A stretch of DNA of 64,000 bases from positions 310,001 to 374,000 of the forward strand of contig NZ_JAAQPI010000007.1 in the NCBI RefSeq assembly GCF_011683955.1. Reading direction: 5' to 3'. Below are positions 4,452-20,540 of this stretch, piece by piece. The translations under genes were made by a program, and so were the position numbers. Origin of the DNA: Pseudomaricurvus alkylphenolicus (GTDB lineage Bacteria; Pseudomonadota; Gammaproteobacteria; Pseudomonadales; Cellvibrionaceae). The notes under the pieces were generated by a model. The model was given only the letters and a program-made list of their open reading frames with translations. It was not told the origin of the DNA and did no database searches. The first letter of the stretch is position 1; the number at the start of each line of letters is the position of its first letter.

Positions 4452-5624
4452 TTACTTCCTCAAAATCAATGCCGCTGTCGGCGCGGGAACCCCACCGGTG
4501 ACCAATACCGTCTCCGCATCCTGCACTTGTGCTGTCGACGTCCCCCTTACCTGCCTGACGCCCTCGACGATGTGGTTAAAGCCGTGGATATAAGCCTCAC
4601 TGAGGTGACCCCCATGAGTGTTCACCGGTAGCTCGCCGCCCAATTCGATGCGGCCGTTTTCCACGAAGGCTCCTCCCTCTCCCTTCTTACAGAAGCCGTA
4701 ATCCTCCAATTGTGTCAGCAGGGTGTAGGTGTAGCAGTCGTAAATTTGCGCCACATCGATGTCCTGCGGCGTCATGTCAGCCATTTCAAACAAACGCGGG
4801 GCGACATAGGCCGACTGAGTCTCCGGAAAGTCGAACTTGAATGGCAGTTGCTCCCACCACAGTGTCGTCTTGGGAATACCCAATACCTGAGCACATGCCC
4901 GAATATACGCAGGGGTTTGTTTCAGATCTCTCGCCCGCTCGGCAGAGGTGACAATCACCGCCGCAGCGCCATCACAGGGGGAAATGGCTGAATCGAGCTC
5001 TCGCAATGGCTCCGTCGTAAAGGGTGAGTCGTAGTAATCCTCAAGGGTCAGGGGATCTCTTCTTATCGCATTGGGATTCATCGCGGCGTGCTTTCTGGCC
5101 GCCACCGCGATTGCCCCCAATTGGGCATTGGTGGTACCGTATTCATGCATGTGCCTTTGGGTCATCATCGAAAACACATCCATCATGGCCGTCCAGCCAA
5201 AGGGGCGAAGAAAATCACCTGACCCCGACGCCCTGGCCCACAGCGTGGTCGAGTTATGGACCGCTCCCTGCATAAAGTCATAGGGAGTAAAAGAACGGTA
5301 GACAACCACGCAGTTGGCCATACCGCTGGCAACCGCCATCACCGCCTGGGTTACGGCAGAGCAGCCAGAGCCACCACCAAAAAAGGTTTCGCCCCAATAG
5401 GTGACGTTGGGCAGCCCCAGATTGGCGGCAATCATTTCCACGGAGGAGGATGAATCGACGCTGTATTTCAGGATTCCATCAATGTCTTTGACATTGATGC
5501 CCGCATCTTCAACCGCGTTGGTAATCGCTTCCAGCGCCAGAGAAAAGGAATCCCTTCCGGAGTTGACCAGGTACTCCGTCTGTCCTATCCCTGCAATAGC
5601 GCATTTATCTCTCATTTGCTTCAT
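4452..5624 (-). CDS. Thiolase-fold lipid-transfer protein/Ltp2-like acyl-CoA retro-aldolase
   Basis: 390 residues with GGGGAG about 7 nt before the ATG at 5624. The fold is of the thiolase/SCP-x type (AIAGIGQTEY at the N-terminus, SPCDGAAAVIVTSAERA, HGGHLSEAYIHGFNHI near the C-terminus). The Tyr in IYDCYTYT and the Tyr in LSEAYIHG match the positions proposed as catalytic in Ltp2-type retro-aldolases, while the thiolase nucleophile context is altered (GGGSGCSA). Coupling with the DUF35 gene, MaoC hydratase and ACAD pair suggests cleavage of a beta-hydroxy acyl-CoA side chain without thiolytic CoA. An ordinary thiolase-like enzyme is the alternative. Confidence 0.88.
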   Translation of the reverse strand: MKQMRDKCAIAGIGQTEYLVNSGRDSFSLALEAITNAVEDAGINVKDIDGILKYSVDSSSSVEMIAANLGLPNVTYWGETFFGGGSGCSAVTQAVMAVASGMANCVVVYRSFTPYDFMQGAVHNSTTLWARASGSGDFLRPFGWTAMMDVFSMMTQRHMHEYGTTNAQLGAIAVAARKHAAMNPNAIRRDPLTLEDYYDSPFTTEPLRELDSAISPCDGAAAVIVTSAERARDLKQTPAYIRACAQVLGIPKTTLWWEQLPFKFDFPETQSAYVAPRLFEMADMTPQDIDVAQIYDCYTYTLLTQLEDYGFCKKGEGGAFVENGRIELGGELPVNTHGGHLSEAYIHGFNHIVEGVRQVRGTSTAQVQDAETVLVTGGVPAPTAALILRK

Positions 5625-5659
5625 TGTGTACTCCCCTAAATTCGTACGTTTCCCGCTTC

Positions 5660-6115
5660 TCAGTGATCCTCAGCCGGTTTGCACTGCATCAACAGGGTTT
5701 CGGTGCCCTCTACACACACTTCGCCCCTTTGGTTAACAATTTGGAATCGCGATTTCACCGTTCCGCGATCACCCCGACTGGTCAGCCGGGTTTCCATGAC
5801 CTTAATGTTTGCGGTAATCGTATCTCCGATGACCGTGGGGCCGGGAATTTTGAGATCCATACCCAGAAATCCCACCGTCGTACCATCCACAATGCCGAGT
5901 TTCTGTTTGAGGCCTGAATACATGGAAACCACCAGCAGTCCCTGGGCAATGCGTTGACCGAAGGGTTGACCTTTAGCGTACTCTTCGTCCGTGTGCATGG
6001 ATGCGTTATCCCAGGACAATGCACTGAAAAGCACGATGTCGGCTTCGGATACTGTGCGCGAAGGCGTTGTATATTCCTCTCCTTCGACAAATTCTTCAAA
6101 ATACTTGGCAGCCAT
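5660..6115 (-). CDS. MaoC-like (R)-specific enoyl-CoA hydratase
   Basis: 152 residues. The start at 6115 (MAAKYFEEF) is chosen because the longer frame would overlap the upstream gene by about 90 bp. Single hotdog domain with the hydratase signature: Asp-Asn...His in SWDNASMHTDEEYA, then FGQRIAQGLL, where the usual AHG is AQG. This is the hydration step between the ACAD pair and the aldolase. The 4-bp gap from the citrate-synthase-like gene indicates co-transcription. Substrate is unknown. Confidence 0.9.
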   Translation of the reverse strand: MAAKYFEEFVEGEEYTTPSRTVSEADIVLFSALSWDNASMHTDEEYAKGQPFGQRIAQGLLVVSMYSGLKQKLGIVDGTTVGFLGMDLKIPGPTVIGDTITANIKVMETRLTSRGDRGTVKSRFQIVNQRGEVCVEGTETLLMQCKPAEDH

Positions 6116-6119
6116 TGCT

Positions 6120-6980
6120 TTAGCTCTTTTTGATGTACTGTTCCGGCAAGTCGCGCTCACCAACGCCCGTGTATTGCTGCATATGCGGCGGAACGATACG
6201 CAGCGGCACACCGTCTCTCAGCTCTTCTGAAATATGAGCGACCAGCGCCGGTGTGTAGCCAAGAACAGCGATTCCGGTAATCTCCACCGGAGTAAAACCG
6301 AGCTCAGCGCCGATGCAGGCGACACGAGCGGGCCAGTTGAGAGAGATCTCCCGTCCGATTTTGACTTCTGCCGCCTTGCGAATGGCCTCATAAATCCCTG
6401 AGTACTCGCCAATCAGGCCCAGTTCGTCCTGAACTTTCAGCAAGCTTTCGGCTCGCAGATCAGCATCTCGATAGTAGGGATGCCCAAGACCGGGTACCGC
6501 TTCTCCACGGTCCAGATAGCTGCTCACCACTTTTTCCGCAACTTCTTCGGCGCTCAGGTTTTCAGCCTTCATTTGCTGGTAGGCACTTTCGAGCAGTTCC
6601 CCGGCGAATTGCGGCGATACATAGGTTCGGCCCAGTGACAAGATACCCGCCGCGATACCGGGTATGGGCGAATCGGGCGATGCCGAGACAATGGTCCGGC
6701 CGGGTACGGTTACCATGCTGTTAAAGCCATAGTCGCCAATAGAGCAAAGCAGTGCGTCAACCATCTTACGCTGCTTGTCATCCGGCAACTCGCCGCGTAT
6801 CACAAGATAGACCATTTCCGCGAAGGACATTTTGCTTTCAATCATGTCACACAGGCGGTAACCCCTGACGACAGAATTTCCGGTATCCGGATTCACCTGG
6901 CTGATACTGGTGGACCAATATTCATTCCAGTTTTTATTTTTGATGAATGAAAACAGTGATTTGCGCTTTTTCTTCGCCAT
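6120..6980 (-). CDS. Citrate-synthase/citryl-CoA-lyase-like protein lacking the first catalytic His
   Basis: 286 residues, SD AGAGGA before ATG 6980. The chain follows the short citryl-CoA lyase/citrate synthase type: YRLCDMIESKMSFAEMVYLVIRGELP, GLGHPYYRDADLRAESLL (second His region) and PALVAHISEELRDG. Where family members have the first catalytic His (HGGA after AAG-LL-G), this one reads GILSLGRTYVSPQFAG, so the His is missing. The protein may act on a non-citryl CoA ester, or be regulatory. It is the first gene of the seven- or eight-gene minus-strand operon and starts just downstream of the large inverted repeat at 7038-7120. Confidence 0.82.
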   Translation of the reverse strand: MAKKKRKSLFSFIKNKNWNEYWSTSISQVNPDTGNSVVRGYRLCDMIESKMSFAEMVYLVIRGELPDDKQRKMVDALLCSIGDYGFNSMVTVPGRTIVSASPDSPIPGIAAGILSLGRTYVSPQFAGELLESAYQQMKAENLSAEEVAEKVVSSYLDRGEAVPGLGHPYYRDADLRAESLLKVQDELGLIGEYSGIYEAIRKAAEVKIGREISLNWPARVACIGAELGFTPVEITGIAVLGYTPALVAHISEELRDGVPLRIVPPHMQQYTGVGERDLPEQYIKKS

Positions 6981-7177: not shown

Positions 7178-9592
7178 ATGCGCACAATCGCGGCATCTCG
7201 AACGCTGTTATTCCTGTTGATCAGCGTCGCGATAACCATCGCCGTAGTCTCAGGATTGAGTTGGTTGAATCATTACAAACATGATGGGGAACTTCGCTTA
7301 TCCGGCTTGAAACAACCCGTCAGCGTGGTTCGCGATGAAAAGGGAATGGCGTATATCTATGCACAGAACCACTGGGACGCAACACGGGCACAAGGCTTTA
7401 TCACCGCCCAGGACCGCCTGTTCAGCATGGAGATGACCCGTCGTATGGTAACCGGTCGCCTCGCAGAAATAATGGGGGATACGGCCCTGAAAGCGGATAT
7501 TGAGCAGCGGACTGTCGGTATTCACCGCGCGGCAAAAAAACATTTTGATCTTTTGAACGATCGCGACAAACGTTACCTGCAGCATTATGTCGATGGTATT
7601 AATGCCTATATCCAAACGAGATCCGAAGAACACCCCATCAAGCTCAACCTGGCCGGTATTGAACTTGAGCCCTGGACACCCGCAGACTCGCTGGCCATTT
7701 TTTATCTCTTCGGTTGGGGGAGTTCCTCCAACTTAAAAACCGAAATCATTAATCAGCTCTTGGTGGACAAGGTTGGATTAGACAAAGCACAACAGATATT
7801 CGCCTTGAACATCAATCCCGATGACGAAAATAAAACTGGTGCTGGCCCTGAAATCTCCCATAACTCCAATATGAGCTCACTCAACCTGATGGAATCATCC
7901 AGCCTCAACAGTTTTCTGGAGCAACACCCGCTTCAGTTGGGCAGTAACAATTGGTCTGTATCCGGAGAGCTCTCTGAGGGCGGTAAACCCATTGTCGCAA
8001 ACGACCCCCATTTGAAATCCAATATACTGCCCGGACCTGCTTATCCCATGGCCATTATCACCCCGGAATATCGAATCGTCGGTTCCGGCATCGCGGGAAT
8101 GCCAACGATGCTGATCGGCCGTACCGAGCATGTAGCTATCGGTGCCACAAATGGGTATGGCGACACACAGGATCTCTATGTAGAAACCATCGACCCGCAA
8201 AATCCGAGTCACTATCTGGAAGGGACTAAATCACTCCCTCTTGAAATCATTGAAGAGACATTTCGCGTAAAGGACGATCGTGAAGCCAGCGGTTACAGAA
8301 AGGTAAATCACAACATAAGACTCACCAGAAGAGGTCCGCTGGTTAGTGGTATTTTCGATGGTCTGAACACCGACAAGGCTCTGTCTATGCGCTGGTCCAT
8401 GCTCGAAGCAATGGAACCTTCGATTGCCCTGGATGGCATTTTGTTTGCCCAGTCCGTCGACGATGTCAGGACGACGCTAAGCAGCAAAACCATGATATCG
8501 GCGAACTGGGTGTTTGCCGACATTCACGGAAACATCGGCTATCAGGCCAGTGGCAGAATTCCAATTCGCCGTCAGGGAGAAAGCTGGCTGCCCTACCCCG
8601 TTACCAGTGACAAAGATAACTGGATCGGCTGGATTCCCACTGAACATATGCCCCAAAGCGAAAACCCCTCCAGGGGCTGGGTAGGCACCGCTAACCAGAA
8701 GGTCGTTGGCGATGATTATCCCTACTACTATTCCTCTTATTTTTCCCACTCTTACCGGTATCAGCGCATGCGCGAGCTGTTGGATTCCCGCCGAATAATG
8801 AGCATTGATGATCATTGGCAATATCAGCGCGACACCAAGAACATGATGGCTGTGACCATCGCTCCGAGAATGGCCGAAGCTCTGCTAAAGCATCAAGACA
8901 CGCTTGTCATGGGAAAGGTCCTCGACGAATGGAACCACCATGATGATATTGACCTGGCCGCGCCGGCCATTTTTCACAGTACTTATCAAGAGTTAGCCAA
9001 GCTGGTGTTTGAAGATGAATTGGGCGAAGAACTCGCTGCTCAAATGTTGGAAATCAGGTATCTGTGGCAGGAGCGACTGGAAAAGATGATTATGGACGCT
9101 CAATCCCCCTGGTTTGATATCACAACCAGCCGGGCATCGGAGGAAACCCTCGACGACCTTCTGTATCAGGCCGCCATAGCTGCCAAAAACTCCTTACAGG
9201 AAAAGATGGGCGAAGACCCGATGCAGTGGCGCTGGGGTGAAATCCATACCATTGAATTCAACAGCCCATTGCGTTCCAAAGGCTTTGGTAAAAGTCTGCT
9301 CGGCGCTGGTACTCATCCGTTCCCGGGGTCAGGCGAAACCATTCATCGTGCCGCTTTTGGCTTTGCTCAGCCGTTCGACACGAGTTTTTCCGCTTCATTG
9401 CGCATGATCGCTGACTTGAGTGACACCGAGAAGGTGCTCGCGGTAATACCCGGTGGTACCTCGGGCCGTTTATTCAGCCCTCACCGAGACGACCAGGTGC
9501 AGGCTTTCGTCACCGGTGAAAAGCGATATTGGTGGTTCAGCGACGAGAAAATCAGCCAACACGCCGTCAGTCGACTGGAGCTGATACCCTAA
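7178..9592 (+). CDS. Penicillin-acylase-family Ntn hydrolase (acyl-homoserine-lactone/amide acylase-like)
   Basis: 804 residues from ATG 7178 (AGAGGT 6 nt upstream; the longer frame adds six residues). An N-terminal membrane or signal segment (LLFLLISVAITIAVVSGL) sends it to the periplasm. The chain has the typical order: alpha part with QAQ-like GFITAQDRLFSMEMTRR, spacer, then the autoprocessing site GSNNW near residue 256, whose Ser becomes the N-terminal nucleophile of the beta subunit. The oxyanion/binding Asn region and late HPFPGSGETIHRA follow family norms. Substrates of this family range from beta-lactams to acyl-homoserine lactones and N-acyl amides, and specificity cannot be read here. 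Its promoter shares the 31-nt element with the acyl-CoA operons, suggesting it releases a fatty-acid-like moiety for them. Confidence 0.93.
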   Translation: MRTIAASRTLLFLLISVAITIAVVSGLSWLNHYKHDGELRLSGLKQPVSVVRDEKGMAYIYAQNHWDATRAQGFITAQDRLFSMEMTRRMVTGRLAEIMGDTALKADIEQRTVGIHRAAKKHFDLLNDRDKRYLQHYVDGINAYIQTRSEEHPIKLNLAGIELEPWTPADSLAIFYLFGWGSSSNLKTEIINQLLVDKVGLDKAQQIFALNINPDDENKTGAGPEISHNSNMSSLNLMESSSLNSFLEQHPLQLGSNNWSVSGELSEGGKPIVANDPHLKSNILPGPAYPMAIITPEYRIVGSGIAGMPTMLIGRTEHVAIGATNGYGDTQDLYVETIDPQNPSHYLEGTKSLPLEIIEETFRVKDDREASGYRKVNHNIRLTRRGPLVSGIFDGLNTDKALSMRWSMLEAMEPSIALDGILFAQSVDDVRTTLSSKTMISANWVFADIHGNIGYQASGRIPIRRQGESWLPYPVTSDKDNWIGWIPTEHMPQSENPSRGWVGTANQKVVGDDYPYYYSSYFSHSYRYQRMRELLDSRRIMSIDDHWQYQRDTKNMMAVTIAPRMAEALLKHQDTLVMGKVLDEWNHHDDIDLAAPAIFHSTYQELAKLVFEDELGEELAAQMLEIRYLWQERLEKMIMDAQSPWFDITTSRASEETLDDLLYQAAIAAKNSLQEKMGEDPMQWRWGEIHTIEFNSPLRSKGFGKSLLGAGTHPFPGSGETIHRAAFGFAQPFDTSFSASLRMIADLSDTEKVLAVIPGGTSGRLFSPHRDDQVQAFVTGEKRYWWFSDEKISQHAVSRLELIP

Positions 9593-9623
9593 GCAGGTTA
9601 ACCGCCTCGCACGAGAATGATTC

Positions 9624-9654
9624 GGCTAAGTCGAAGGATTGTTAGCAACATTCC
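9624..9654 (+). promoter_or_regulatory. Third copy of the 31-nt element, upstream of second acyl-CoA operon
   Basis: Ungapped match at 24 of 31 positions to the right arm at 7090-7120: it starts with GGCTAAGTC, has AAG and GTT in the same places, and ends with AACATTCC. It stands 62 bp before the ATG of the ACAD gene at 9717. Same length, same orientation towards the plus-strand gene and conserved ends support a common operator. Confidence 0.6.
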
Positions 9655-9716
9655 TTATGGCCTCACAAACCTGCACATTATTGACTGCAAACCCTAAGCA
9701 GCATATAGGAAGCCAC

Positions 9717-10892
9717 ATGCACACAAAATTTTCGTCGGAAGACATTCAGTTTCGCGACGAGGTCAGGGCCTTTATGCGCGATGCCTACACACCGGATCTC
9801 GCGCGCCGCATCGCCTCGGACAAAACCTTTAAAGATGCCCAGGTGGAATGGGAGAAAAAGCTCTACGAGAAGGGCTGGATCGCTCCCCACTGGCCCAAGG
9901 AATACGGTGGCGCCGGCTGGAGTATCGCCCAGAAGTTCATCTACGAAAGTGAGCGCTCAGCAGTCGGTGCACCAGATGTGATGCCCTTTGGCCTGAAAAT
10001 GCTGTCGTCCGTGATTCTGAAATTTGGCAGCGAAGCCCAGAAGCAGCGTTTTCTGCCAAAAATTCTGAGCAGCGACGAATGGTGGTGCCAGGGTTATTCG
10101 GAGCCCGGCGCCGGCTCAGATCTGGCCGCCCTCAAAACCAGTGCAGCACTGGACGGCGACGAGTACGTCGTCAATGGCCACAAGATCTGGACCAGCTACG
10201 CACACAATGCCGACTGGATCTTTTGTCTGGTCAGAACCAGCAAAGAAGAAAAACGCCAGCAGGGCATCAGCTTTCTGCTGATTGACATCAACACCCCGGG
10301 TATCACCATTCGCCCCATTGTCTCCATTGACGGTCGCCACACCTTGAATGAGGTCTTCTTCGACGACGTGCGCGTACCCAAAGAAAATATGGTGGGTGAA
10401 CCCGGTAAAGGCTGGACCTACGCCAAAGCCCTGCTCACCCACGAGCGCTCCATGGCCGGCGTTGCCGACTCCAAACGCGACCTTGAACAAATACGCCAGT
10501 GGGCCAGCGAGGAAGTCAATGGCGGGCAGGCCCTGCTTGACGACCCCACGTTCAGTAAGCGCCTGACCGATGTGGAGATTGACCTGATGGCGCTGGAATT
10601 TACCGAACTGCGTTCTGTGGCCAAAGCCATGAAAGGCGAAGGCCCCGGCACCGAATCTTCAGTACTGAAAATCAAAGGTACGGAGATTCAGCAGGCCGTT
10701 CAGGAGCTGCGCATGGATATTGCCGGCTACTACGGCGCCGTGGTTCAAGGTGAGCTCAGCAGTCACGAGGTTGGTCACGACTTCGGCAGTTCCGCCCGCG
10801 AAAAGTACATGTACGGCCGGGCCGCCTCCCTCTACGGCGGTTCCAATGAAATTCAAAGGAACATTATCGCCAAATTTGTTTTGGGCCTTTAA
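9717..10892 (+). CDS. Acyl-CoA dehydrogenase, probable catalytic (alpha/large) subunit
   Basis: 391 residues from ATG 9717 (MHTKFSSEDIQF), with AGGA 8 nt upstream; the longer frame adds an implausible 26 residues. Similar to pimeloyl-CoA dehydrogenase large subunit/FadE26-type proteins: GYSEPGAGSDLAALKT, GHKIWTSYAHNADW, and C-terminal SLYGGSNEIQRNIIAK. The medium-chain base is absent (YGGS), but Glu in LLTHERSMAG (near residue 245) fits the ChsE4 catalytic position. It should form a heteromer with the next gene. First gene of a four-gene plus-strand operon. Confidence 0.92.
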   Translation: MHTKFSSEDIQFRDEVRAFMRDAYTPDLARRIASDKTFKDAQVEWEKKLYEKGWIAPHWPKEYGGAGWSIAQKFIYESERSAVGAPDVMPFGLKMLSSVILKFGSEAQKQRFLPKILSSDEWWCQGYSEPGAGSDLAALKTSAALDGDEYVVNGHKIWTSYAHNADWIFCLVRTSKEEKRQQGISFLLIDINTPGITIRPIVSIDGRHTLNEVFFDDVRVPKENMVGEPGKGWTYAKALLTHERSMAGVADSKRDLEQIRQWASEEVNGGQALLDDPTFSKRLTDVEIDLMALEFTELRSVAKAMKGEGPGTESSVLKIKGTEIQQAVQELRMDIAGYYGAVVQGELSSHEVGHDFGSSAREKYMYGRAASLYGGSNEIQRNIIAKFVLGL

Positions 10893-14552: not shown

Positions 14553-15269
14553 CGACACATCCTCGAATGCCACACATTGCAGGTTATTAGACTAGTCTGA
14601 TTGTTCGCGAATAAACTGTCGCAGTGCGTTCGGGAGACACCTGCCCAACGGCAACTCCGTCCCAATTACCCTGAGTACCCAAGGCATTGCACGTTTCCAC
14701 GGGAACCAGCCAATCTCCATGGCGGATTCAGATGCTCTTTAGGATTCAGACCCTATCAAAGTGTTCAGTTAGGCGGTATCTCTTTGATTTAAGGAATAAA
14801 TATCTCCTGCCTGCAAATGGTCATCGTAGAGGCTCTGGACGGATTATTCTACGGTATCAAGGCCGCGTACCCGACCGGAGTCGCAGAGGAGGGAACTGGC
14901 GTTGATGCCAGAAGAAAGCCCGTATGGGAGGGCAATAGTGGTCGTAATCTGGTTGATGAGGTTGCACGAGGGGGATAGCTTATTTCTGTCAGTAAATACT
15001 AACAGGCAGGTCATAACCCGAAGCGGAATGTTAGCTCTTTCTAATATAAAGCTGTCCCGCTGGACAAAATTTACACAAATTGTGACCTGAAACCCCAGGG
15101 CTGTAGAAACAGACCGCTGCAACGTGATATAACACCTCAAACTTATAGGGAATTAAGGTTTGACACTGATGCAAAGGGATTTCGCTTCCTGCCCCAAATT
15201 CCCATCTATTAATATTCGTCAGAGTGACATAGTTAATCGCGTCACGTGGACGTTGAATAAAATCGTTAG
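14553..15269. other. About 720 bp without a convincing gene
   Basis: Open frames here are short, lack SD sites and show no motif on either strand. Composition shifts from the GC-richer operon to the AT-rich array that begins at 15276, so this may be the junction of an acquired block. No inverted terminal repeats, tRNA or integrase were seen. Confidence 0.5.
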
Positions 15270-15275
15270 TTGCAC

Positions 15276-15722
15276 ATGAATAATCACATTAATCTCAGAG
15301 TCGAAGGATCGGAAGGCGGAACTCAACCCGTAGAGGTCGAGTCGATTTCGTCAAATGTATATCGCATCTTGTATTCTCCTGGGTTCGTGGAGGATGTGGC
15401 CGCTGGCGATATTATCCGGGTGACTGACGAGGAGACTGGTGCATTTGAAGTAATTGAATATGGCGGCAATGTTTCAGTAAAAATCTCTGATACTTCTCTA
15501 ATCATTGAAAAGCTTTCTAAGATTGATCAGATATTGTCTAAAGTAAATGCGCGCCGAGATGGAAACCTAGAGCATGTCGCCGTCTGGACGATTCCCGCCG
15601 AGTCAGGGTTCGAGGCAATTGAGACATCAATAGCTAAAGCCTGTGAGCTACTAGAAGAGCCTGTTTGGTGGTATGGCAATGTATATGATTCGCAAAATAA
15701 TCCAATTAACTGGTGGCGTTAG
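15276..15722 (+). CDS. DUF4265-like protein
   Basis: About 148 residues; ATG 15276 preferred to TTG 15270, neither with a clear SD. The N-terminal half reads like DUF4265: two short strands, then VYRILYSPGFVEDVAAGDIIRV and GNVSVKIS. The C-terminal half (residues 100-148) is alpha/beta and ends in Trp-rich VWWYGNVYDSQNNPINWWR. Proteins of this family are often found as orphan genes next to toxin/immunity clusters; biochemical function is unknown. First gene of an AT-rich plus-strand array. Confidence 0.6.
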   Translation: MNNHINLRVEGSEGGTQPVEVESISSNVYRILYSPGFVEDVAAGDIIRVTDEETGAFEVIEYGGNVSVKISDTSLIIEKLSKIDQILSKVNARRDGNLEHVAVWTIPAESGFEAIETSIAKACELLEEPVWWYGNVYDSQNNPINWWR

Positions 15723-15741
15723 GTTCTTGTAACCTGAAATT

Positions 15742-16056
15742 ATGAAATTCAATTGGAAAGAAAGTCGCGATTTTATTTATCTTCTGATAATGCTTGCTTC
15801 AGCCCCATACTGGTATACAGATAATGGCGGCGACCCTATTGATTCTGAAATTTGGTGGGGGCTATATTTAATAATCTTTGTTACCGCCTTCCCATTAGTG
15901 CTGGGTAAAGTGACTTTAAATTTATATCGCAGTGTTCGCTACTCAAGAAAAGAGCGGGAGACAATGAATAGCACGGGGTTTATTGCCACCTTAAGTGTTG
16001 GCTGGCTTATAATCATTCCTATAATTTTGTCCGTGTACAAGGATTTAACTCTGTGA
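15742..16056 (+). CDS. Small membrane protein, unknown
   Basis: 104 residues with three hydrophobic segments: about residues 9-24, 36-56 and 77-99. There are two basic loops, and the gene starts 19 bp after the DUF4265-like gene, so the two may be co-translated. No family recognised. Codon use is AT-rich like its neighbours. Confidence 0.55.
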   Translation: MKFNWKESRDFIYLLIMLASAPYWYTDNGGDPIDSEIWWGLYLIIFVTAFPLVLGKVTLNLYRSVRYSRKERETMNSTGFIATLSVGWLIIIPIILSVYKDLTL

Positions 16057-16058
16057 AC

Positions 16059-16136
16059 GTTAACAAGGCCAGCCAGAGGGGAAAAATAATCACTGCTTCG
16101 CTCTGGTTTTTCGGCCTCGGATGGCAGCGTTAATCT
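16059..16136. repeat. attC-like imperfect dyad in the first spacer of the array
   Basis: The left end reads TTAAC..GCCA.CC..GAGG and the right end CCTCGGATGGCAGCGTTAA, which pair with a few mismatches. An inner CCAGAG/CTCTGG pair is also present. The layout (about 80 bp, TTAAC/GTTAA ends) recalls an integron attC site, but the consensus boxes are imperfect and no integrase is present. Confidence 0.3.
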
Positions 16137-16140
16137 AAGT

Positions 16141-16162
16141 GTCTCCTTTTGGCACTATTGAG
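16141..16162 (+). repeat. Array spacer motif, copy 1
   Basis: GTCTCCTTTTGGCAC followed by TATTGAG. It agrees with the consensus GTCCGCTTTTGGCAC at 13 of 15 positions and lies just before the membrane-protein gene at 16187. Confidence 0.6.
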
Positions 16163-16186
16163 CCTCCTTGGTAAAGGAAAATTAAA

Positions 16187-16597
16187 TTGAACGAATATGA
16201 AAAATCGGCAGGTAGACCACTAGAAATCATTGTTGGCATAATTTCGTTGGGTATTTCCATTATTCTTCTCCTGGCGTTTGGATTTCTTGTCTTAAAGGCC
16301 AATGTAGGATGGCCCATGCTCCTCGGTGGTCTTTTCCTGGGCCTGCTTTGCTATTGGTTTGGCAATATCGCCGTTCGCCTCTTTCTTAATAGGAAAAATT
16401 CTCAAGGAGGTCTCCTTTCATCTTCAGGACTTATGTTTTGGTGTGTATTTCTAGGATTGGGATCTGTAGGTATGGTAGTGATGGGAATTTGGGGGGGACA
16501 GTTAGGAACGGTACTAGGCGGGGCGGGCATGCTCATCGCATGCTGCTATGGTTGGCGTATAGGTTCGAATCGGAAAATGAAGGGAAAGAGCATTTAA
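16187..16597 (+). CDS. Four-TM membrane protein, unknown
   Basis: 136 residues from a TTG start with AAGGAAAA upstream. Four predicted membrane segments (about residues 9-30, 34-60, 80-100, 104-122) and a basic C-terminus (RIGSNRKMKGKS). No recognised family. Flanked on both sides by copies of the spacer motif. It could be a bacteriocin- or toxin-immunity-like membrane protein, but this rests on context only. Confidence 0.55.
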   Translation: MNEYEKSAGRPLEIIVGIISLGISIILLLAFGFLVLKANVGWPMLLGGLFLGLLCYWFGNIAVRLFLNRKNSQGGLLSSSGLMFWCVFLGLGSVGMVVMGIWGGQLGTVLGGAGMLIACCYGWRIGSNRKMKGKSI

Positions 16598-16605
16598 ATC
16601 AAACC

Positions 16606-16629
16606 GTCCGCTTGTGGCACAGTAGAGAC
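16606..16629 (+). repeat. Array spacer motif, copy 2
   Basis: GTCCGCTTGTGGCAC (14 of 15 to consensus) followed by AGTAGAGAC, in the 58-bp spacer before the Imm26-like gene. Confidence 0.6.
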
Positions 16630-16655
16630 TAACAAGTTTTTTAGAATATAGAATT

Positions 16656-17048
16656 ATGAATATCGCATACCCATTCATACCAAAATCTACAAGCCGAATC
16701 GAACAGGGACAATTCTGGGCGGTTCCATTAGATAATGGCTATGGATGCGGAGTTGTTCTCGCCAAGCTATCGAACCAAGGAAAAATCGATACCAGACTAT
16801 TCCTGGCAGGTCTACTTGATTGGTCCGGTACGGATGAGCCAACGCTGAGCAGTATAGAGAATGCGGTCGTTATAGAAAGAGGTTTTGCACACATAAAAAG
16901 TATCACTGAAACCGGCGGTAAAATCATAGATTCAGGCTATGTGGTATGTAATTTCTCTAAAGAGGTGGAAGACACGGACTCCATAAGCACCTGGGGTTAC
17001 CATTTTATTTCAAAGTTGGCAGCTAAGAATGCAGAAGCCACTAAGTAA
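16656..17048 (+). CDS. Imm26-like immunity protein (tentative)
   Basis: 130 residues. The N-terminus IEQGQFWAVPLDNGYGCGVVLA matches the beginning of Imm26/related immunity domains (GD-F-AVPL-DGRYG-GRV), with beta-rich continuation TRLFLAGLLDW and a Trp/Tyr-containing C-terminus. No toxin gene is adjacent, so it would be an orphan immunity gene. SD is weak. The family call depends on one motif. Confidence 0.5.
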   Translation: MNIAYPFIPKSTSRIEQGQFWAVPLDNGYGCGVVLAKLSNQGKIDTRLFLAGLLDWSGTDEPTLSSIENAVVIERGFAHIKSITETGGKIIDSGYVVCNFSKEVEDTDSISTWGYHFISKLAAKNAEATK

Positions 17049-17110
17049 AACTAACCCGTTTCTCTGGATCAGAACACGGGATCTGACTGCTTATTTCGAG
17101 ATTGTTCAGT

Positions 17111-17136
17111 GGCCGCTTCTGGCACATCAGAGGCGG
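17111..17136 (+). repeat. Array spacer motif, copy 3 (forms hairpin)
   Basis: GGCCGCTTCTGGCAC (13 of 15 to consensus). Here the motif is the left half of a hairpin: CCGC-TCTG pairs with CAGA-GCGG at its right end. This suggests the original repeat was palindromic. Confidence 0.6.
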
Positions 17137-17163
17137 AGCGATGGTTAAAGAAGGGATTTGTGA

Positions 17164-17448
17164 ATGACAGAAATAGTAAATTGCAGTGAACACGGGCCAA
17201 ATCAAGCTTGCATGATTTGCTGTCATCTAGCAAAAGAGAACGGAAAGGAGTTTGCACACGTACTCGTAGAGCCAGATGACGATGACATGGAAACTGCAAT
17301 GTGCGTTGACTGTGAAGCTCACTTACTAAGCTCAGACGGATGGACCGAAGAACTAAACGAATTTGCAAAATGGAAGATTTATTGCAGACAATGCTTCGAA
17401 CAAACTTTGAAAAATCATTACCTCGTAGCGGAAGGGTACATGAAGTAG
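17164..17448 (+). CDS. Cys-rich putative zinc-binding protein
   Basis: 94 residues with regularly placed Cys/His: CSEHG-NQACMICCHL near residues 7-21, MCVDCEAHL at 46-54 and YCRQCFEQ at 73-80. This gives three CxxC-like pairs consistent with zinc binding. It resembles a family of small uncharacterised proteins that start C-KHG and occur as accessory genes in many bacteria, often near immunity proteins. Acidic middle (EPDDDDMET). Function unknown. Confidence 0.6.
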   Translation: MTEIVNCSEHGPNQACMICCHLAKENGKEFAHVLVEPDDDDMETAMCVDCEAHLLSSDGWTEELNEFAKWKIYCRQCFEQTLKNHYLVAEGYMK

Positions 17449-17497
17449 ATGTTCATCGCACATATGCCATCCGTACTGAGTACACAGTGTTGAAACT

Positions 17498-17519
17498 ATC
17501 CGGTTTTGGCACTATACCG
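17498..17519 (+). repeat. Array spacer motif, copy 4
   Basis: ATCCGGTTTTGGCAC (13 of 15 to consensus) followed by TATACCG, in the 93-bp spacer before the gene at 17542. Confidence 0.6.
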
Positions 17520-17541
17520 CCGTACTGGTTAGGCACCAATC

Positions 17542-17949
17542 ATGAAATTTGAATCACACTTTCGTTATCAGAAGATGTTAGAACTCCCGTCAGGGGAAAT
17601 TCGGCCTCTGTTGAGCGAGATCAAGAGTATAATCGAGACACGATTAAAACAGACATTATCCGAGTTTGACGATACAGCCAGCACTCCAAATCAGGGTGCG
17701 ATAGATAACCAGTTTGTTCGAGATAGAAAGAAGCGTACAGCTTACTTCGACGCTATTGAGGCAATCGCAGAAGAACTCAATGAGTTGGGGCACCGATTGC
17801 TACCACTGGATCAAGATAATGACATCGATTTTGATTCAACTAGTGTATCTTGGGCTACAAACTGGATGAGCGACTCGCCTTTCGGGTTAGACTTAGAGAT
17901 ATCACCGAGCAAGGCTCAGGTTCTATGGGTGGTATCACCAAATCCTTAG
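17542..17949 (+). CDS. Hypothetical cytosolic protein
   Basis: 135 residues, acidic, mainly helical in the first 100 (LSEIKSIIETRLKQTLSEF, AYFDAIEAIAEELNELGHRL) with a short beta-rich end (FGLDLEISPSKAQVLWVVSP). Typical size and composition for an immunity-type protein, but no family motif. Starts directly downstream of a spacer motif. Confidence 0.5.
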   Translation: MKFESHFRYQKMLELPSGEIRPLLSEIKSIIETRLKQTLSEFDDTASTPNQGAIDNQFVRDRKKRTAYFDAIEAIAEELNELGHRLLPLDQDNDIDFDSTSVSWATNWMSDSPFGLDLEISPSKAQVLWVVSPNP

Positions 17950-18012
17950 TAAAGTCAGTCCTAGTCGAGAGCGCAACAGTGCGCACGGGCCATATTCGCA
18001 TTGTGATGTACT

Positions 18013-18034
18013 GTCCGCAAATGGCACATTAAGG
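18013..18034 (+). repeat. Array spacer motif, copy 5
   Basis: GTCCGCAAATGGCAC (12 of 15 to consensus) followed by ATTAAGG, in the 117-bp spacer before the secreted-protein gene at 18067. Confidence 0.55.
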
Positions 18035-18066
18035 AATGCATAAGGCAAAAAAATCGGTTACCCCAT

Positions 18067-18468
18067 ATGAAAATCGTCGCTTTTTTCTTATTGCTTATAT
18101 TTTTCTACAGCTCTGCTTATGCGTGCCCAATTGACCCTTGGTATCGTGTTGCAAACAACTATGAGAACTTCCTAGAAAATGCAGATGTTGTTTTCCTAGG
18201 AAAGCTTGATACCTACGAAATGGAAAGTGAACTCAAACAAATAGCAACGTTCATAATAATCAAGGGATTTAAAGGTGATCTTAAATTTGGCGAAAAGATT
18301 GTTGTTAAAAATCACCACAATACCAGTTGTTCGCGGCAGTTCCATCCACCGGGAGCCGCCTTTTATGTGTTCGCCAACAATGTGGATTCTGGTAGTTATA
18401 TCATAGACGGCTATGCAACGTTCGTCCCAATGAGCGTTGCACTTGAAACAAATATGGGGCTAAAGTAA
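18067..18468 (+). CDS. Secreted protein, possible TIMP/netrin-like (NTR) fold
   Basis: 133 residues. A signal peptide (IVAFFLLLIFFYSSAYA) would be cleaved just before Cys20, giving a mature N-terminus CPIDP. The remainder is beta-rich: NADVVFLGKLDTYE, ATFIIIKGFKGDLKFGEKIVV, an SCS around residue 84 and FHPPGAAFYVFA. An N-terminal Cys immediately after signal cleavage followed by this strand pattern is like bacterial TIMP-like proteins. Confidence in export is good, in the fold moderate. Confidence 0.55.
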   Translation: MKIVAFFLLLIFFYSSAYACPIDPWYRVANNYENFLENADVVFLGKLDTYEMESELKQIATFIIIKGFKGDLKFGEKIVVKNHHNTSCSRQFHPPGAAFYVFANNVDSGSYIIDGYATFVPMSVALETNMGLK

Positions 18469-18503
18469 GAAGTATAATGATAGCAGGAAGTACTGAGAAC
18501 AGA

Positions 18504-18527
18504 GTCCGATTTTGGCACCATTGAGAC
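18504..18527 (+). repeat. Array spacer motif, copy 6
   Basis: GTCCGATTTTGGCAC (14 of 15 to consensus) followed by CATTGAGAC, in the 93-bp spacer before the gene at 18562. The downstream half resembles copies 1 and 2 (ATTGAG, GAGAC). Confidence 0.6.
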
Positions 18528-18561
18528 ACTTTTTATCTGCTACTCCTAAAAAGGAAGCAGC

Positions 18562-18999
18562 ATGAAATACACGTTCAATCTGTTAATCCTCATGGTTTCA
18601 TTGATACCTCTCATGACAACTGCTTGTGAGCTTCATCTTGCTGGGAAATGGAAATTAAATTTTGAATACTATTTAGACTCTATTTCAGAAGGTGATCCAG
18701 ATGTTAAGCAGAGATTGAGTGATATCTGGGATGGTCAGCCATTCATAAAGATTTCACTTGATGATACTAAAGGGAAATACGCTCAAAAATGGGCAGGCGG
18801 ATGGAGCAGTTTCAATTTCGATTATCGAATATCTCCTGGTGAAAGTGATTCTTGTGAGTTTACATTTACCGCCTACACTGGCAACGAAGAAATAACGACC
18901 GAAGCCATGAAGATCTGGGTTACTCCCGAAGGATTTTGCCAACGCCCTTTGGTTAACGCTAAGATTACCGATTGCTATCTCAAAGACGGAGAACAGTGA
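18562..18999 (+). CDS. Exported protein of unknown function
   Basis: 145 residues with AAGGAAGCAGC before ATG. Signal peptide about residues 1-20 ending MTTAC; a lipoprotein site is possible but the lipobox is poor. Mature part has LAGKWKLNFEYY, a motif seen at the start of small lipocalin-like barrels, and five Cys that could form disulfides. No family assigned. Confidence 0.5.
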   Translation: MKYTFNLLILMVSLIPLMTTACELHLAGKWKLNFEYYLDSISEGDPDVKQRLSDIWDGQPFIKISLDDTKGKYAQKWAGGWSSFNFDYRISPGESDSCEFTFTAYTGNEEITTEAMKIWVTPEGFCQRPLVNAKITDCYLKDGEQ

Positions 19000-19130
19000 T
19001 TCGATTCAGTCCGATACCAGCACTACTGCAACAGCCGACATCGACGACAGGATACAACGGCAGCAATAAGTGGGCCTATGACAAGCGAATTCCTGTCGAC
19101 TATCTAATGGAAATGGATTGTGATAAATAA
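18996..19130 (+). CDS. Candidate 44-aa ORF overlapping the previous stop (GTGA)
   Basis: GTG at 18996 overlaps the TGA of the exported-protein gene by 4 nt and opens 44 codons. The second half (NGSNKWAYDKRIPVDYLMEM) looks protein-like. It may be a translationally coupled small gene, the broken C-terminus of a longer protein, or chance. No SD of its own. Confidence 0.25.
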   Translation: MIRFSPIPALLQQPTSTTGYNGSNKWAYDKRIPVDYLMEMDCDK

Positions 19131-19346
19131 AAATAAGGATTTATCAATATTTTTTGAAAGTTGAGGCTTTTATGTGGCTAGCTCGTAACTCATGGTTAGC
19201 ATTATTTGGTTTAATGGCCGCTGATGCACCAGTTTCAAGTGATTCAGCTGCTCTGGCGTTGGTTAAATTGAATCCATCCACAAATGACATTGTAGTGACG
19301 CACTGATCGCGCAGCCCGTATAGCAATAAACAACATAAGAGGCAAA
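19131..19346. other. Intergenic, nothing clear
   Basis: AT-rich, with only short frames on either strand and no copy of the spacer motif. It ends in AAGAGGC just before the membrane-protein gene at 19347. Confidence 0.4.
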
Positions 19347-19688
19347 ATGGATATCGCGCTAATACAGATAATTGCGATAGTTGCCGGCGGAGTAGCGATA
19401 TTTGCCATCGCTAGGCTGTCCCGAAAGTCTCACGATAGGCAATACGGAAAACCTTCTTTCAAGGATAAGCTTAGATTTGCCTCAATCTTTGTCTGTACAC
19501 TTGGGTTTATGCTTTCCGCAGTTGTATTCTTTCCCATGCTCGCGGCAATTCTGATTGCCGCAATCATCTCCTGCAGCTATTTAGGAATCATAGATGAGAA
19601 GCCTGGTGTCTATAGGGATGTTATGTATTCCGCGACAATTTGCTCTTTAATTTCAGGCTTTTTGGGCCTGGTAATCCATGCCAGGTGA
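19347..19688 (+). CDS. Small four-TM membrane protein, unknown
   Basis: 113 residues; hydrophobic segments about 3-22, 40-62, 64-78 and 92-111, with a basic loop RLSRKSHDRQYGKPSFKDK. No family recognised. It closes the AT-rich plus-strand array. Confidence 0.5.
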   Translation: MDIALIQIIAIVAGGVAIFAIARLSRKSHDRQYGKPSFKDKLRFASIFVCTLGFMLSAVVFFPMLAAILIAAIISCSYLGIIDEKPGVYRDVMYSATICSLISGFLGLVIHAR

Positions 19689-20354: not shown

Positions 20355-20372
20355 AAGACGTATCAATTCTGT

Positions 20373-20453
20373 AAAAGGCAACCCCAATTGAAAAGATGGG
20401 GGCGCAAAGCTACCGGTCTAAGGGGTATCTACTCTATGACAGCGGGGTCGCCA
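20373..20453 (+). ncRNA. Cyclic di-GMP-I (GEMM) riboswitch
   Basis: The conserved blocks occur in order: GGCAACCCC, GAAAAG tetraloop region, GGGGGCGCAAAGCTACCGG, TCTAAGG, then ACAGCGGGGTCGCC closing the 3' side. This matches the GEMM-I aptamer (GGCAA, GACGCAAAGC, CCGG-CUAA, AGCGGGGUUACC) with compensated changes. A 9-bp hairpin with arms ATCCTTCG/CGAAGGAT follows at about 20460-20481 and may be part of the expression platform. It sits in the leader of the response regulator gene at 20541. Confidence 0.88.
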
Positions 20454-20540
20454 GAAGTCATTATCCTTCGTTCGAAGGATAGGTCTTTGCCCCTGTTACA
20501 ACCGAGTAGGTACGCACGAAGTTTTACTGAGGGCACAAGG

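Follow-up and report, generated by a model that had tools for sequence, protein, structure and literature searches.

Introduction

How do small genes that show no similarity to one another come to stand in a single row, with the same short sequence in one spacer after another? This question is raised by a locus of Pseudomaricurvus alkylphenolicus (Gammaproteobacteria, Cellvibrionaceae), lying in a stretch of 64,000 nucleotides (assembly GCF_011683955.1, contig NZ_JAAQPI010000007.1, positions 310,001 to 374,000), here called the window, in which an array of small genes carries a 15-nt motif in six consecutive spacers. Strings of single-gene cassettes, each with a site at its 3' end, are known from integrons. 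A preliminary description of the window had taken the array for a cassette collection built through a repeat, without an integrase nearby, and had suggested a palindrome as the ancestral unit of that repeat.

We take the feature at this locus to be real and unusual, and read it best as a variant of the cassette arrays that recombinases make. On balance we favour a mechanism in which the arrays would have been made by site-specific recombination, with a tyrosine recombinase acting on a site of its own.

A 24-bp site in six consecutive spacers

The six motif copies, all on the plus strand (window 16141-18518), lie where the preliminary description had placed them and match 13, 14, 13, 13, 12 and 14 of the 15 positions, in this order. 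The whole window contains nine matches at up to three mismatches, against 2.23 expected and a maximum of 6 among 100 shuffles, and six of these nine are packed into 2.4 kb on a single strand. The 15-nt motif is the left portion of a 24-bp site in which a 6-bp core (TGGCAC) is flanked by a 9-bp arm on the left and a weaker, partly inverted 9-bp arm on the right, a layout that was read in the light of sites adjoining recombinase genes (see below). The next start codon follows 20-34 bases beyond the end of the 24-bp site for all six genes. The spacers with the motif thus stand as described, but the span of eight or nine genes was a little generous: no motif copy is present between genes 1 and 2 (15722-15742), and the one before gene nine is degenerate.

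A weight matrix, iterated on five array regions of this genome, gave 32 sites above a score cut of 10: 6 in the window, 7 in C20, 12 in C6, 3 in C2 and 4 at the end of C68, at least one of them (L011:7702, C2 region) being part of a repeat remnant instead of an array site. Past the end of the motif, G at site position 21 (29 of the 32) and C at position 23 (20 of the 32) are conserved too. The second arm is identical to the reverse complement of the first at a fraction of 0.43, versus 0.27 after shuffling, and none of 2000 shuffles was as high (30 sites after stricter filters, partly non-independent), which supports the proposed palindromic ancestor. TGGCAC is the core in nearly all array sites, in a search that was seeded with TGGCAC, and within each array the sites with this core at up to three mismatches are all on one strand.

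A search of the genome for the motif, as proposed in the preliminary description, gave a divided result. At up to three mismatches the 15-nt form is unenriched (438 matches versus 438 in the reversed control; 50 versus 36 at up to two), and the weight is therefore carried by the clustering and by the longer form. This 24-bp form, GNCNGNTNNTGGCAC-N6-GNC, was found 64 times versus 3 in the reversed control, an excess that is partly circular because the pattern was derived from this genome. Among 144 genomes of the family only this one is far above its control; of the other 143, G045 and G136 have 7 versus 0 each, and the remainder are much nearer to their reversed controls.

Five arrays share a leader and some of their units

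Four further motif clusters are present in the same genome, at the start of C20, at C6:194-201 kb, at C2:83 kb and at the end of C68. All five arrays begin with a common non-coding leader, the matches to the window leader spanning 219-277 bp at 76-81% identity, and in all five the leader itself starts with a site of the same layout and the core TAACCC. The array genes, picked from lists of open reading frames (ORFs), are transcribed away from the leader and encode 38 proteins of 85-252 aa (median 135.5). By blastp (E ≤ 0.01) these 38 include three similar pairs, each corresponding to a unit present in two arrays, and no pair within the window array, in agreement with the mutual dissimilarity noted earlier. 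Pfam cut-offs were passed by seven of the 35 proteins scanned (DUF4265, Imm26, Macro, PEMT, DUF2695, Imm11 and Cys_rich_CPCC), two of which (Imm26 and Imm11) belong to named immunity families.

Identical gene order in all relatives, or a motif no rarer in other intergenic regions of the genome, had been named as outcomes speaking against mobile cassettes. Neither was found, gene order being compared between the arrays of this one genome: units common to two arrays have different neighbours in each. We compared seven junctions, selected because a shared stretch extends as far as a site there. Every one of the seven has one 40-bp flank with 30-39 of 40 positions matching and another within the shuffled range, so that homology ends inside the site. 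Two of the seven are the borders of the gene-5 unit, which is 97% identical over 402 bp between the window and C6 and has a site at either end. The others are the start of the C6 unit at 10688 compared with C2, the start of the gene-8 unit compared with the end of C68, the end of the first C6 unit compared with C2, and, in a decayed array at C23:179.5 kb, the two sides of a single site, where a C6 unit ending at 10634 is followed by the window unit starting at 18013. About 1.8% of the array length, entered by hand, lies within 3 bp of a core. Five arrays, units with differing neighbours and seven in-site junctions together support the proposal of a cassette collection built through a repeat.

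The leader was not found in the 143 other family genomes, in a wider collection of genome contigs searched with a single exact pattern, or in plasmids or phages; the one match in a viral collection, 100% over 4505 bp, comes from the same strain. That collection contains the C20 array stretch. Next to the C20 array (L009 4735-6951, L064) are a helix-turn-helix-like gene and one whose product is a phage replication gene A protein (PF05840, 302.5 bits); one array may ride on a prophage or satellite. At L009 16298-18091 there are tandem repeats, whose copies of about 285 bp are 69-78% alike. Two interpretations of the leader were discarded: as a structured RNA, 10 of its 66 predicted pairs show a compensated change and the covariation term is unfavourable (+1.2), and as a remnant of the recombinase region it has no convincing similarity. 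A leader fragment in C30 (L057, 8967-9047) has small minus-strand genes on one side and a serine recombinase gene in divergent orientation (9583-10296) on the other; it was left unused, the 15-nt motif occurring there once, with three mismatches and on the other strand.

The site adjoins genes of a short tyrosine recombinase

About 30 bp beyond one site, G045 has a reading frame that encodes the catalytic portion of a tyrosine recombinase. Its direction of transcription leads away from further site-bearing genes, and one stop interrupts it when it is read from its likely start. An open relative of 208 aa in G013 has HxxR and GH, and a tyrosine motif by eye. This candidate enzyme of about 200 aa matches Phage_integrase with 68 bits, and its best NCBIfam matches are XerA, XerC and also FimE-type invertases, all under the cut-offs. 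Literature searches returned no described site or cassette role for Xer-like or FimB/FimE-like simple tyrosine recombinases of this kind.

The G013 protein has at least 552 relatives among at least 590 candidate stretches of named genomes, and the best 80 loci were analysed, which are not independent because many come from related Pseudomonas. The half pattern GNCNGCTNNTGGC is enriched in these loci (121 versus 25 in the reversed control). At up to one mismatch, 44 of the 77 loci with enough downstream sequence have it facing the gene from a position at most 220 bp downstream, compared with 5 facing outward and 14 in the reversed control, and 30 of 49 distances from the gene to the outer end of the downstream site measure 49-64 bp. 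Upstream, it faces the gene in 22 of the 80 loci (outward 4, reversed control 6); 17 loci have it on both sides. Among 47 tabulated loci, 34 have a site within 120 bp, and the core is TGGCCG in 31, TGGC being fixed by the pattern. At the densest locus, L201 of Massilia aurea, the sites alternate with small genes oriented against the site direction, and Pfam supports two of four chosen genes. At L184, L185, L188 and other Pseudomonas loci, different ends that we take to be those of insertion sequences directly follow half sites of the GACCGCTTTTGGCC type, as though the site were a target for other elements.

In P. alkylphenolicus itself the short recombinase is present in two copies, both broken, and none of the genome's recombinase matches is near the window array, as the preliminary description had said of integrases. 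Cassette exchange may be real and performed in trans by another enzyme, for instance the host's XerC/XerD or a different tyrosine recombinase of the genome, an account that overlaps with the one preferred here. The 97% identical unit suggests fairly recent movement although the short recombinase is broken, and the genome has other integrase-like genes. On the other side, the arms are unlike the Xer arms of pdif sites, by eye and to judge from excerpts of PMC13141974, and no TGGCAC site (up to one mismatch) was found in 13 partly overlapping stretches around 10 of the 11 recombinase matches. We regard such an enzyme in trans as possible, if on the unlikely side.

The site outside the arrays

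Many 24-bp sites of this genome are the ends of an abundant repeat, mostly of 319 bp (KWCCGGTTATGGCAC at up to one mismatch, 120 versus 18). In 39 repeat loci (L103-L141), chosen from the match list and mostly listed there as pairs, 34 have both ends by our own pairing rule, as inverted, outward-facing sites. Site position 21 is G in 65 of 68 flanks and position 23 is C in 60, so that the outer arm, beyond the repeat, is conserved as well. No target duplication was seen by eye. Remnants of the repeat stand beside one array and one decayed array (L011, L100), and a further copy lies at L013 13566-13893.

These data bear on a second alternative, in which the sites are solo ends of a miniature inverted-repeat transposable element (MITE) or a one-ended transposon, and transposition or gene conversion moved the neighbouring genes. 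A repeat with the site at both ends and the position-21 G in its flanks, together with remnants next to arrays, is what this account would have in its favour. The array sites, however, point one way and have no partner end, and neither the lack of visible target duplication nor the conserved outer arm fits with it. We consider it unlikely.

The site recurs in a second genus: G045 contains 20 sites versus 4 in the control (up to two mismatches, five regions) amid strings of small genes, one of ten scanned being Imm50, and several of its sites are joined to the right-hand portion of an attC-like element. In L145-L147 of G045, a second copy resembling GTCYGCTYT stands about 46 bp upstream of several sites, by eye. 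G136 was judged a chance case and rejected as a carrier: a single identical string accounts for three of its seven matches, and none appears array-like by eye. In 293 genomes of the order, a wider pattern had a match in 127 (18 versus 3 reversed in this genome); a few genomes exceed their control, several of them from one other family, f20 (e.g. 20 versus 5, 9 versus 0). G312 has the site pattern 8 times versus 0 reversed, and together with the f20 genomes is a possible further carrier.

A shared promoter or an ordinary integron as improbable alternatives

The motif might also be a promoter or regulator-binding site common to a regulon of small genes, which the units merely carry, and its single copy 20-34 bases before each of six start codons is in keeping with this. 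None of nine sigma-70-like matches in the region (10.3 expected) starts at a site, however, and a sigma-54 spacing does not fit by eye. The same site furthermore occurs at both ends of a repeat and downstream of recombinase genes, and the Massilia L201 genes run against their sites. We find this explanation improbable.

The genome has an integron integrase gene. Located at the start of the window's contig (L055, that is C68:1-15000, 5198-6241), it scores 434.7 bits (cut-off 265) and has six attC candidates upstream (L055 126-4016); the sole match over the IntI cut-off (C68:5267-6211) is more than 300 kb from the window array. Elements of attC type, 78-89% alike, are found in or near arrays at window 16061-16132, L012 8547-8618, L055 3551-3622 and L101 5018-5089. 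That of the window has the ends TTAACAAG...GCGTTAA, and its bottom strand has a hairpin of -21.9 kcal/mol; no part of the window array, this element included, was flagged in a simple attC scan. These elements hint at a capture of integron cassettes by the new arrays. That the arrays are remnants of an ordinary integron with decayed attC sites, i.e. a cluster of attC sites lacking integron integrases (CALIN), is highly improbable despite the integrase in the same contig and the attC-type element of the window, since the sites lack attC core ends, that element is separate and stands beside site 1, and all seven junctions fall in the new site and none in attC.

Organization of the window array

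The features of the window array are listed in Table 1. The degenerate site at 19009 has a counterpart at L012:10210 (core TGGCAT, score 4.0). At gathering cut-offs, Rfam has a single match over the whole window, outside the array: a c-di-GMP-I riboswitch (20367-20455, 69.3 bits) just 3' of it, followed by an ORF that resembles a response regulator by eye.

Table 1. Features of the array in window coordinates
Feature	Coordinates	Strand	Basis or remark
Leader start site	15005..15028	+	site layout with core TAACCC; low weight-matrix score
Non-coding leader heading the array	15014..15263	+	76-81% identity to four other array heads, same genome
Gene 1, DUF4265	15276..15722	+	Pfam PF14085, 48.5 bits (cut-off 27)
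Gene 2, small membrane-type protein (by eye)	15742..16056	+	ORF; no Pfam match above cut-off
Integron attC-type element inside the array	16061..16132	+	matches C68:3551-3622, next to the integron integrase, at about 85%
Site 1	16141..16164	+	motif and weight matrix
Gene 3, membrane-type protein (by eye)	16187..16597	+	ORF; no Pfam match above cut-off
Site 2	16606..16629	+	motif and weight matrix
Gene 4, Imm26-family immunity-like protein	16656..17048	+	Pfam PF15428, 27.6 bits (cut-off 23.3)
Site 3	17111..17134	+	left border of unit common to array C6
Gene 5, small Cys-rich protein	17164..17448	+	unit 97% identical in C6, with other neighbours there
Site 4	17498..17521	+	right border of unit common to array C6
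Gene 6	17542..17949	+	ORF; no Pfam match
Site 5	18013..18036	+	left border of unit with decayed copy at C23:179.5 kb
Gene 7, small secreted-type protein (by eye)	18067..18468	+	ORF; no Pfam match
Site 6	18504..18527	+	left border of unit common to array at C68 end
Gene 8	18562..18999	+	62.5% identity to a gene in array at C68 end
Degenerate last site, core CAGCAC	19009..19032	+	weight-matrix score 6.4 (below cut of 10)
Gene nine	19347-19688		preceded solely by the degenerate site 19009

Proposed mechanism

In the cassette mechanism that we favour, a unit would consist of one small gene with a 24-bp recombination site at its 3' end. A tyrosine recombinase would pair two sites of like orientation, binding their arms, and exchange strands in the 6-bp core, which would be the crossover region; single units would thereby be excised, inserted or reordered and the sites regenerated. 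Sites in direct repeat would release or insert a unit and inverted ones would flip it. Because the in-site junctions, the inverted arms, the core that differs between lineages and the adjacency of a tyrosine recombinase fit together, conservative site-specific recombination with a 6-bp crossover appears the most fitting process. The likely enzyme is the short tyrosine recombinase of about 200 aa whose genes elsewhere are bordered by the site, an assignment made with less confidence than the mechanism as a whole. As this recombinase is broken here, the arrays may now be fossil and static, or served in trans. Some cargo genes may protect from the toxins of neighbours.

Several results weigh against this mechanism. 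No intact short recombinase was found in this genome, and no 24-bp TGGCAC site (up to two mismatches) lies within 1.5 kb on either side of its two broken copies or of the open G013 copy. In the 80 recombinase loci the TGGCAC form is unenriched, with 3, 12 and 222 matches at 0, 1 and 2 mismatches versus 0, 18 and 181 reversed, and dense arrays are rare: three or more same-strand sites within 4 kb occur at 2 of the 80, versus 0 in the control. The constancy of the core arises partly by construction, because the search in this genome was seeded with TGGCAC and that next to recombinase genes had TGGC fixed. The leader has TAACCC as its core and not that of the cassettes. Besides the leader, seven stretches are shared between arrays, and 6 of their 14 ends are at sites and 8 elsewhere. 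The latter are both ends of the attC pair (window 16061-16132 and L012 8547-8618), both ends of a 68-bp stretch (L010 11035 and L012 10368), one of them in a very degenerate site by eye, both ends of a 64-bp stretch (L010 12594 and L011 8086), and the right ends of two more pairs. The inverted sites ending the 319-bp repeat are beyond simple excision, and the existence of the site outside arrays, as repeat ends, tempers the case for live mobility. Finally, neither circular forms nor strain polymorphism were seen in the single strain at hand.

Relation to known systems and significance

In our best reading, the arrays would function like integrons, dif modules and the recombinase-associated acquired interbacterial defence (rAID) arrays of Bacteroidales, while each of these has at least one tested feature that they miss. 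Single-gene cassettes with a 3' site, in an array without an adjacent integrase, are shared with integrons and CALINs. Yet attC sites (RYYYAAC...GTTRRRY hairpin) are absent between cassettes as a rule, with one attC-type element versus six TGGCAC sites, and IntI, with its six attC candidates, is located separately in the same contig and not beside the window array. The closest resemblance is to rAID, in cargo size, co-orientation and a conserved intergenic motif, as far as excerpts of the rAID literature go, in a comparison of arrangement. Where rAID has a tyrosine recombinase gene at the head of the array, no such match is found at the array heads here, judging from the genome matches, the ORF lists by eye and a Pfam scan of part of the flanking ORFs. 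The genes of rAID are orphan immunity genes; of the genes scanned here, a minority belong to named immunity families.

Like the Acinetobacter dif modules (XerC/XerD), as described in excerpts of PMC13141974, the arrays have genes between short sites of two arms and a 6-bp spacer. In the dif modules, sites that recombine have identical or almost identical spacers. The arms here are GTCCGCTTT-like, in contrast to the 11-bp pdif arms seen in part of PMC13141974 (compared by eye); the units here point one way, and the arrays are on large contigs rather than small plasmids. In contrast to MITEs, the array units lack flanking terminal inverted repeats, which the 319-bp repeat itself has. The six site strings had no occurrence in the literature searched, which covers few subscription papers.

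Outside integrons, the way in which small defence-type genes are gathered into arrays is an open question, and the biogenesis of rAID arrays is an active research area according to excerpts of a 2025 preprint (PMC12247911). The defined 24-bp site, the units in different contexts and the candidate enzyme family open this question to a simple plasmid assay. Among 72,556 plasmid records, 442 contain recombinase relatives (E ≤ 1e-20), and gene shuffling at this kind of site may therefore reach far past the present genome. We tentatively suggest, with some reserve, that the arrays could represent a third bacterial system of cassette capture beside integrons and dif modules, in which a widespread short tyrosine recombinase and a 24-bp palindromic site with a lineage-specific 6-bp core (TGGCAC here, TGGCCG in Pseudomonas and others) would, in some genomes, build arrays of small, partly immunity-type genes that outlive the enzyme.

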